Positions 62,252 to 64,000 of a stretch of 64,000 nucleotides of DNA are shown here, in pieces. The stretch covers positions 2,259,001-2,323,000 of the forward strand of contig NZ_CP041186.1 of the NCBI RefSeq assembly GCF_006517175.1, read 5' to 3'. The notes below the pieces were generated by a model. The model was not told the origin of the DNA and searched no databases. It saw only the letters and a program-made list of their open reading frames with translations. Both the position numbers and the translations under genes were made by a program. Every line of letters starts with the position of its first letter. The stretch's first letter is position 1. Source of the DNA: Persicimonas caeni (GTDB taxonomy: Bacteria; Myxococcota_A; Bradymonadia; Bradymonadales; Bradymonadaceae).

Positions 62252-62465
62252 GCTTACCCCCGGTGACGAGGTCGAGATTGAGCTCGCTTCCGGCAATGAG
62301 GTTGGGATCTTGAAAACGATTTGCCGATTCGGTCGCTAGGGCGTAGGACTAAGTGCTAGTCGGTCGAAAATGCGACCTCGTCACCGAATGCTAGTCGGTC
62401 GAAAATGCGACCTCGTCACCGAATGCTAGTCGGTCGAAAATGCGACCTCGTCACCGGGGCTAAGC
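62252..62465. mobile_element. 214-bp element with 23-bp inverted ends and 35-bp tandem repeats
   Basis: GCTTACCCCCGGTGACGAGG (62252 onward) matches the reverse complement of 62443-62465 at 22 of 23 positions. Inside, a 35-bp unit containing GGTCGAAAATGCGACC and CGACCTCGTCACCG is repeated at 62354, 62389 and 62424, each carrying a partial copy of the inverted end. The rest of the 484-bp gap holds only a hairpin at 62224-62247. Confidence 0.78.
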
Positions 62466-62549: not shown

Positions 62550-64000
62550 ATGAACCTCACCTTCAAAGTCCCCGTCGAGCATCACCCCAAGACTCTCTCG
62601 CAGCTTCTGCGCCGCGCGTGGCTCGACGCCACCGAGGAGCAGCTCGCCAAGGCGTTCGCCGACGGCAACGTGCGCATCAACGAGCGGCTGTCGAAGAACC
62701 CAGACAAGGTGCCCTCGCCCGACGAGGAGGTCACCGCCGCGGTCGGCGCCGGCGAGGAGCCGTTCGGGCTTCCCGAAGCGGCCGAGCTCGCCCGCGGCGA
62801 GGGCTGGGTGGTGGTGGAGAAGCCAGTCGGCATGCCCGGAACGCTCGATCGCGACGACCCGATGAACTCGGTCTTGTTTTTGGCCGACACGCTCGGGCTC
62901 GACCGCGACACATTTACGCCGGTGTGGGAGATGCCCGCCGAGGGAGGCGGGCCGTGGCTCTTTGGCGATGATCCACAGAATGCCGACGAGCTTTTGGAGG
63001 CGTGGGCCTCCGGCGAGCTCATGATCACCTGGGTGGTGCTCACGCCGACGCCGGGGCGCGCCCAGGGGCGCATCGAGGCGGCGCACGGCATACCGATCGA
63101 CTACAGCGCCACCCAGATCCGCGAGGGCATCGCCGAGCTTCAGCTCACCCCGATGCCCCAGCAGGCGGAGTTCGAGGATGCGCCCGACCCGGTCGAGCTT
63201 GTGCTCGACGCGCTCGCCAAGGCGCAAATCCCGGTGCTCGGCGACGCGCAGCGCGGCGGCTATATGATCGACGGCGGACTTCGCCTACGCGTGACGGCGC
63301 TGTACCAGGCGGGCAGCGACCTCGCTCATAGCTGGAACCCCGACGAGGATTGGTGGCCCACCGACCCGGTGGTCGAGCTTCCCGAAGAAGAGGAAGAAGA
63401 GATCCCGCGCAAAAAGAGCAAGCGCCGCAAAGAAGAGATTGAAGAGCTTCTGGTCTCGGCCAAGACCATCGAGGTGCTCACCCGCCACGGCCACCCGTGG
63501 GTGCTCGCCGACCGCCAGACCGGCAGCCGCGGGCACCTGGCGCCCGGCAGCGTCGTCCAGCTCGTGGGCACCGACGGGGCGACCGGTCCGACTGCGCTCG
63601 TCGAAGGCACCGGCAAGCTCGCCGCGCGGGTGTGGAGCAGCGATCGCGAGGCGGCCGAATACTTCGCCGACGAGGTCGACATGCGCGTCGACGAGGCGTT
63701 TACCCGCCGCGCCGACCTGCTCGGCCAGACTCAGAAGACCGACCTCTTCCGGCTCATCCACAGCGAAGCCGACGGCCTGCCGGGCCTGCAGCTCGACCGC
63801 GTCGGCCCGCTGCTCCGGGCGACGCTGGTGGGCGCGACCGCCTTCGGCTTCCGCGAGCGCGTCTACCAGAATATCCTCGATTTCGACCCCGAGATGATGA
63901 TTCTGGAGGTCGAGCACCTGCGCGATATCCGCACCGAGGAGATGCCCGAGGCGCGCGTGGTCGCCAAAGGCGCGTCCTACGTGCGCCCCGGCGAGCGCGT
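62550..64000 (+). CDS. Degenerate RluA-like domain fused to RlmI-type rRNA methyltransferase, 3' partial
   Basis: Open from ATG 62550 to the window end (at least 483 codons). Residues 1-250 follow the RluA pseudouridine synthase plan: an S4-like start, GWVVVEKPVGMPGT, and a late IPVLGDAQRGG, RLRVTALYQAG. The active-site HRLD block aligns with WEMP, so the catalytic Asp appears lost. An acidic/basic linker (about 280-295) leads to an RlmI-like PUA domain (LTRHGHPWVLADRQTG) and FRLIHSEADGLPGLQLDRVG, the usual entry to the SAM-dependent methyltransferase domain, whose SAM motifs are beyond the window. Confidence 0.78.
   Translation, partial: MNLTFKVPVEHHPKTLSQLLRRAWLDATEEQLAKAFADGNVRINERLSKNPDKVPSPDEEVTAAVGAGEEPFGLPEAAELARGEGWVVVEKPVGMPGTLDRDDPMNSVLFLADTLGLDRDTFTPVWEMPAEGGGPWLFGDDPQNADELLEAWASGELMITWVVLTPTPGRAQGRIEAAHGIPIDYSATQIREGIAELQLTPMPQQAEFEDAPDPVELVLDALAKAQIPVLGDAQRGGYMIDGGLRLRVTALYQAGSDLAHSWNPDEDWWPTDPVVELPEEEEEEIPRKKSKRRKEEIEELLVSAKTIEVLTRHGHPWVLADRQTGSRGHLAPGSVVQLVGTDGATGPTALVEGTGKLAARVWSSDREAAEYFADEVDMRVDEAFTRRADLLGQTQKTDLFRLIHSEADGLPGLQLDRVGPLLRATLVGATAFGFRERVYQNILDFDPEMMILEVEHLRDIRTEEMPEARVVAKGASYVRPGER

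Follow-up and report, generated by a model that had tools for sequence, protein, structure and literature searches.

Why should a bacterial gene carry, in front of a methyltransferase, a pseudouridine synthase domain that has lost its catalytic residues, and what would such a domain do? The question is raised by a gene at the end of the window, by which we mean the whole 64,000-nucleotide stretch of Persicimonas caeni DNA that was analysed (G000:C1:2259001-2323000, within a single contig of 8,047,206 bases). The open reading frame starts with an ATG at position 62,550 of the forward strand and continues past the window end, with residues 1–483 lying inside. Completed from its own genome, the gene encodes a protein of 692 amino acids, and its stop codon is at G000:C1:2323626-2323628. 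The protein has the order S4 domain, RluA-fold domain, linker, PUA domain and RlmI-class SAM methyltransferase (Table 1). The catalytic domain of the methyltransferase, from about residue 481, is almost wholly beyond the window.

Table 1. Positions of the features of the fusion gene, numbered along the window unless a contig position is given.
Feature	Position	Strand	Evidence or remark
S4-like N-terminal domain (residues 1–66)	62550..62747	+	RluD S4 alignment; Pfam S4; pLDDT ~90; charge below that of intact fusions
RluA-fold pseudouridine synthase domain lacking catalytic residues (67–285)	62748..63404	+	hhalign; model against RluA and RluD, partly circular; dN/dS ~0.08
WEMP, the HRLD equivalent (residues 126–129)	62925..62936	+	column-by-column alignments
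TW (residues 160–161), replacing the K.Y motif of the active-site Tyr	63027..63032	+	alignment
Lost GRTHQIR position (residues 213–219); final Arg column is Leu in 16/17	63186..63206	+	alignment
Charged linker	63405..63449	+	length and sequence vary between homologues
PUA domain (residues 312–363)	63483..63638	+	Pfam PUA_3, E 9.1e-5, exactly at the cut-off
Middle domain, PUA to methyltransferase (residues 366–480), containing FRLIHSEADGLPGLQLDR	63645..63989	+	alignment to E. coli RlmI 3c0k
Rossmann-fold methyltransferase domain (481–692), first bases	63990..64000, on to G000:C1:2323625	+	motifs GFFADQR, NLFCHTGAF, DPPT and CRN

A frame or assembly error behind the missing motifs was ruled out, as orthologues of 37–67% identity agree. 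In the flanks of the fusion genes (mostly 1.5 kb), the shared open frames listed were mainly shadow frames of the fusion gene. A perfect 35-bp tandem repeat of 2.9 copies, with the unit TGCTAGTCGGTCGAAAATGCGACCTCGTCACCGAA, was found at window positions 62,354–62,456, about 95 bp upstream of the start codon. Each unit contains the inverted repeat GGTCG-AAAATG-CGACC, and the 28-base core of the unit had no other occurrence genome-wide at two or fewer mismatches. It is possible that this is a regulatory array.

Alignment of the family f1 N-terminal domains against canonical RluA proteins gave an hhalign probability of 99.7 and an E value of 9.8e-26 over 263 columns, with the S4 part included. The segment PVWEMPAEGGG was paired with P.HRLDR.TSG, and WEMP also fell on HRLD in a MAFFT alignment with unrelated RluA proteins from viral contigs. 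A small RluA HMM made from three sequences was matched singly by 15 f1 proteins (best E 2e-7; window protein 1.8e-4). Twelve of the 17 f1 members matched the NCBIfam model rluA_subfam at E≤1, the best at 4.8e-5 and the window protein alone at 0.2, and Pfam returned no family for the N-terminal half of the window protein alone. The RluA homology of this half becomes visible when relatives are added, a single sequence being nearly invisible to Pfam and NCBIfam. The Pfam S4 model matched f1 members with a best E of 5e-4, and the K.xG of RluA motif I is present, with K91 invariant. A PDB profile search with the N-terminal domain ranked RluD first, weakly (0.004), over the S4 part and motif I. AlphaFold without an alignment was uninformative (pLDDT 37); with RluA relatives, the pLDDT was about 90 in the S4 part and below 50 in the C-terminal third. 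The resulting model matched the folds of RluA (Z 12.8) and RluD (Z 11.5), matches which are partly circular because the input alignment held RluA proteins. Judged from the alignments with 17 family members, the N-terminal domain is an RluA homologue of firm ancestry. The sequence-only reading had described an RluA plan, a Pro for the catalytic Asp where WEMP replaces HRLD, and a junction to a PUA domain and a methyltransferase. All three were borne out, the first two by the profile and multiple alignments and the HMM matches of single proteins, and the third by Pfam matches to PUA_3 and Methyltrans_SAM (residues 481–645, E 1.8e-14).

Measured against RluA enzymes, the window protein has no catalytic Asp, a Trp for the Tyr, and no GR.HQ[IL]R. 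In an alignment of 17 family f1 proteins and 10 intact proteins, HRLD, the active-site Tyr and GRTHQIR were jointly absent from all 17. The D129 column holds Pro in 14 of the 17 f1 proteins, Glu in two and Asp in one. At Y161 there is Trp in 15 and Phe in two, against Tyr in every aligned intact RluA. The columns invariant in intact proteins and lost in f1 are H98, H126, R127, L128, D129, F152, Y161 and GR.HQ.R (213–219). As read from these columns, the f1 active site was removed as a whole, beyond a change of one residue. Other residues are conserved in its place. W126, P135, W136, W161 and L219 are conserved replacements in the old active-site region, and D113, Q198, S261 and W262 are further f1-specific conserved positions; in total, 18 f1-specific conserved columns were found, several of them at the old active site. 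From the old scaffold, K91, G231-D232 and R245 remain conserved, and many of the conserved positions of the domain are glycines, prolines and hydrophobic residues. One f1 protein, L009 (genome G010), alone has an Asp in the catalytic position (WTMD), and its Tyr and Arg motif are gone.

The domain has also become acidic. Its net charge per 100 residues ranges from −9.7 to −3.0 in f1 (17 related rows) and from −1.5 to +2.6 in intact fusions, with no overlap, and the S4 part in f1 has kept little of the positive charge seen in the intact fusions. The Persicimonas genome retains five intact RluA/RsuA-type synthases, none as acidic as the dead domain.

In the methyltransferase half, motifs X, I, II and IV are present as GFFADQR, NLFCHTGAF, DLS and DPPT. 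Motif VI of the window protein is CRN, family members having C/S/T-R-N or QN there, and in the alignment no Cys stands at the RlmI motif VI position. The protein scored 138 bits against the NCBIfam RlmI equivalog, for which the cut-off is 712, a strict value that just a single genome among 14 controls reached. The scores of the methyltransferase domain against RlmI and RlmK are close together (92 and 82 bits). The description "RlmI-type" in the sequence-only reading therefore holds for the architecture of PUA, middle and Rossmann domains but not for motif VI, where CRN resembles the SNN of RlmK and the CTN of 3vse more than the SCSG of RlmI. Past position 64,000, where that reading had suggested looking for SAM motifs and a Cys, we found the former but no RlmI-type motif VI Cys. 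Because CRN replaces SCSG, an m5C activity of the RlmI type is unlikely, and we infer that methylation of a base other than as m5C is more likely. A search of the same genome found no second RlmI-type enzyme, the fusion protein being the sole one of its class.

Of the 21 family f1 genomes, 20 have an orthologue of the fusion, which also occurs in several further families within the same phylum. The methyltransferase HMM gave at least 344 bits for 59 fusion-family members and at most 287 for ordinary RlmI-like proteins. HRLD, K.Y and GR[TW]HQ[ILV]R are all intact in seven fusions from non-f1 families (L054, L057, L059, L167, L170, L175 and L179). On the methyltransferase tree, f1 is a single clade (100/96); L054, L167 and L170 are in its sister clade, and L057, L059, L175 and L179 are in the next outgroup. 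Loss of the synthase active site is placed on the f1 stem because intact fusions bracket f1 on the tree, and an intact ancestor with loss on this stem would be the simplest reading. The samples for the tree and the rates comprise 17–59 sequences, most relatives being drafts or MAGs. The seven proteins are apparently intact bifunctional pseudouridine synthase-methyltransferase fusions, and as such they are candidates for two-site rRNA modification by a single polypeptide.

Many members of the f1 sister clade have the synthase centre deleted, with the S4-like start and a C-terminal GD..RGG part left, and a few apparently have no N-terminal domain (some starts are uncertain). By these comparisons, lineages outside f1 shortened or lost the domain in separate events while the methyltransferase stayed intact; outside f1 the domain is therefore dispensable. 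The methyltransferase thus appears as the more persistent half across the phylum, but not within f1. A contig profile search beyond the phylum gave, among the matches listed, two further fusions (L071 and L072), both apparently from genomes that the analysis already included as G287 and G175. The f1 profile found no fusion in viral contigs, and on plasmids no match spanned 80% of the query. Full-text searches of the open-licence literature returned no description of an RluA-RlmI fusion.

Among three close relatives within f1 whose dS is not saturated (0.36–0.44 in the N-terminal domain), dN/dS was 0.078–0.088 for the dead domain and 0.069–0.092 for the methyltransferase. On these estimates, purifying selection on the dead domain is strong and on par with that on the methyltransferase. 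In five f1 members from two separate clades, the methyltransferase is eroded: L021, L023 and L025 (genomes G017, G019 and G016) in one, and L022 and L024 (G004 and G003) in the other. Motif X, motif I, DPPT and motif VI are largely lost, except that L025 keeps motif I. Median identity in members with intact motifs is 0.56 for the methyltransferase and 0.39 for the dead domain; in the five eroded members it is 0.28 and 0.42, respectively. Because constraint on the dead domain persists where the methyltransferase motifs are eroded, this domain is not kept merely for methyl transfer. All five keep an open reading frame, a point against their being simple pseudogenes, and saturation of dS precludes an exact dN/dS for them. 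No other RlmI-class gene was found in these five genomes, which are drafts of 86–93% completeness and may hold an unseen intact methyltransferase copy.

Taken together, the account we prefer, tentatively and at slightly less than an even chance, is that of a bifunctional ancestor whose active site was lost on the f1 stem and whose dead domain was retained for a noncatalytic task, most likely a contact with the pre-50S particle. In the ancestor, one polypeptide would have joined an S4-RluA synthase to an rRNA methyltransferase of the RlmI class with a PUA domain. On the f1 stem, the synthase would have lost its Asp, Tyr and Arg motif with the domain itself retained. It would then have been remodelled: its surface turned strongly acidic, and conserved hydrophobic or rigid residues took over the former catalytic positions. 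In Persicimonas, the methyltransferase half would act on a base of 23S rRNA, though probably not by making m5C as RlmI does. The dead domain would let the protein dock on the pre-50S particle, where it would provide a contact for assembly or for a checkpoint. That the f1 dead domain has a noncatalytic job of its own is very likely from its conservation. The pre-50S contact is plausible by analogy with E. coli, in which non-functional RluD mutants support growth; deleting RluD or TruB causes growth defects that mutants without function can reverse (PMC7356742). Since the acidic surface speaks against ordinary RNA binding, such docking would go through proteins or a small patch.

A bolder extension, which we consider rather doubtful, is that a two-enzyme fusion turned stepwise into a noncatalytic assembly protein. 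The synthase would have died first and the methyltransferase later, at least twice independently, with the domain that died first still selected. As selection still preserves the dead synthase domain after the death of the methyltransferase, the selected role would not be modification.

The sequence-only reading had proposed that the dead synthase is an rRNA-binding guide, which brings the methyltransferase to its target base and has dropped catalysis but kept RNA binding. The retained S4 and RluA folds agree with this, as do the still conserved scaffold residues K91, G231-D232 and R245; the lineages with a truncated domain, which keep the S4-like start and GD..RGG and lose the catalytic centre, are what would be expected if binding outlasts catalysis. 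However, the S4 and catalytic parts are strongly acidified to a range that intact fusions do not share, the Arg of HRLD and the basic residues of GRTHQIR are gone, and the domain is still constrained in the five genomes where the methyltransferase motifs are lost. These points weaken the guide proposal, which we now regard as unlikely; it may still be true as a special, less probable case of a noncatalytic contact role, and an independent noncatalytic role fits the data better. Equally improbable in our view is a passive relic, needed only for folding or solubility of the fused protein and contacting no ligand. Conserved positions that are often glycine, proline or hydrophobic would suit it, and so would truncation or loss of the domain in other lineages. 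Acidic surfaces help solubility in saline habitats, which would suit it too. But a relic would hardly show a dN/dS near 0.08 matching that of a catalytic domain, constraint that persists when the methyltransferase relaxes, or 18 f1-specific conserved columns, several of them at the old active site.

The charge shift, seen in 17 of 17 members, could also point to an acidic RNA mimic or lid, covering the RNA surface of the PUA and methyltransferase domains and keeping the enzyme inactive until a proper pre-50S particle displaces it, with conserved Trp, Pro and Leu filling the old active-site positions. Yet neither the PUA nor the middle part of the f1 proteins is basic, and the acidic charge persists where the methyltransferase no longer needs gating, which makes this quite improbable. 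Continued pseudouridine synthesis by means of another acid, for which the Asp of L009 and the Glu of two members at the aligned position might be cited, is scarcely credible: Pro occupies that position in 14 of 17 proteins, and none of the 17, L009 included, has the Tyr or the GRTHQIR block.

Pseudouridine synthases have long been suspected of a second, noncatalytic job in ribosome assembly. Family f1 offers a natural separation-of-function experiment on this point in a free-living bacterial family: the catalytic residues are gone, the domain is under selection, and intact fusions are available for comparison. Strains of Bradymonas, Lujinxingia and Persicimonas are cultivated, which makes direct testing feasible.

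Comparison with known systems places the f1 protein between several of them. With the 23S rRNA synthases RluD and RluA, the best structural relatives of the N-terminal model, it shares the S4 and RluA folds, colinear over about 263 columns; unlike them, it has no HRLD, Tyr or GRTHQIR, is acidic, and is fused to a PUA domain and a methyltransferase. The seven intact fusions of the same phylum have the same domain order and methyltransferase clade but keep all synthase motifs and are not acidic. RlmI (YccW, 23S rRNA m5C1962, PDB 3c0k) has the same PUA, middle and Rossmann domains, collinear over 391 amino acids, whereas the f1 protein has CRN for SCSG and an additional N-terminal dead synthase. 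The RlmK half of RlmKL (m7G2069, PDB 3v8v) is similar in DPPT, in the Asn at motif VI and in a motif II like YLEW.E.NL.LNGL; RlmKL, however, is two joined methyltransferases, while the f1 protein combines a PUA domain and a dead RluA domain with a middle part like that of RlmI. The vertebrate protein RPUSD3, a further precedent for a retained inactive synthase, also belongs to the RluA family, has lost its catalytic Asp and is without activity (PMC12716993), but it is mitochondrial, its Asp is changed to Gly, and a methyltransferase fusion is not known. The kinetoplastid mt-LAF3 and its relatives (6yxx_EC, 7aoi_XP and 7am2_BZ) differ in being eukaryotic and of another architecture. They gave weak profile and fold matches to the N-terminal domain, and they present an RluD-like fold on large-subunit assembly intermediates.
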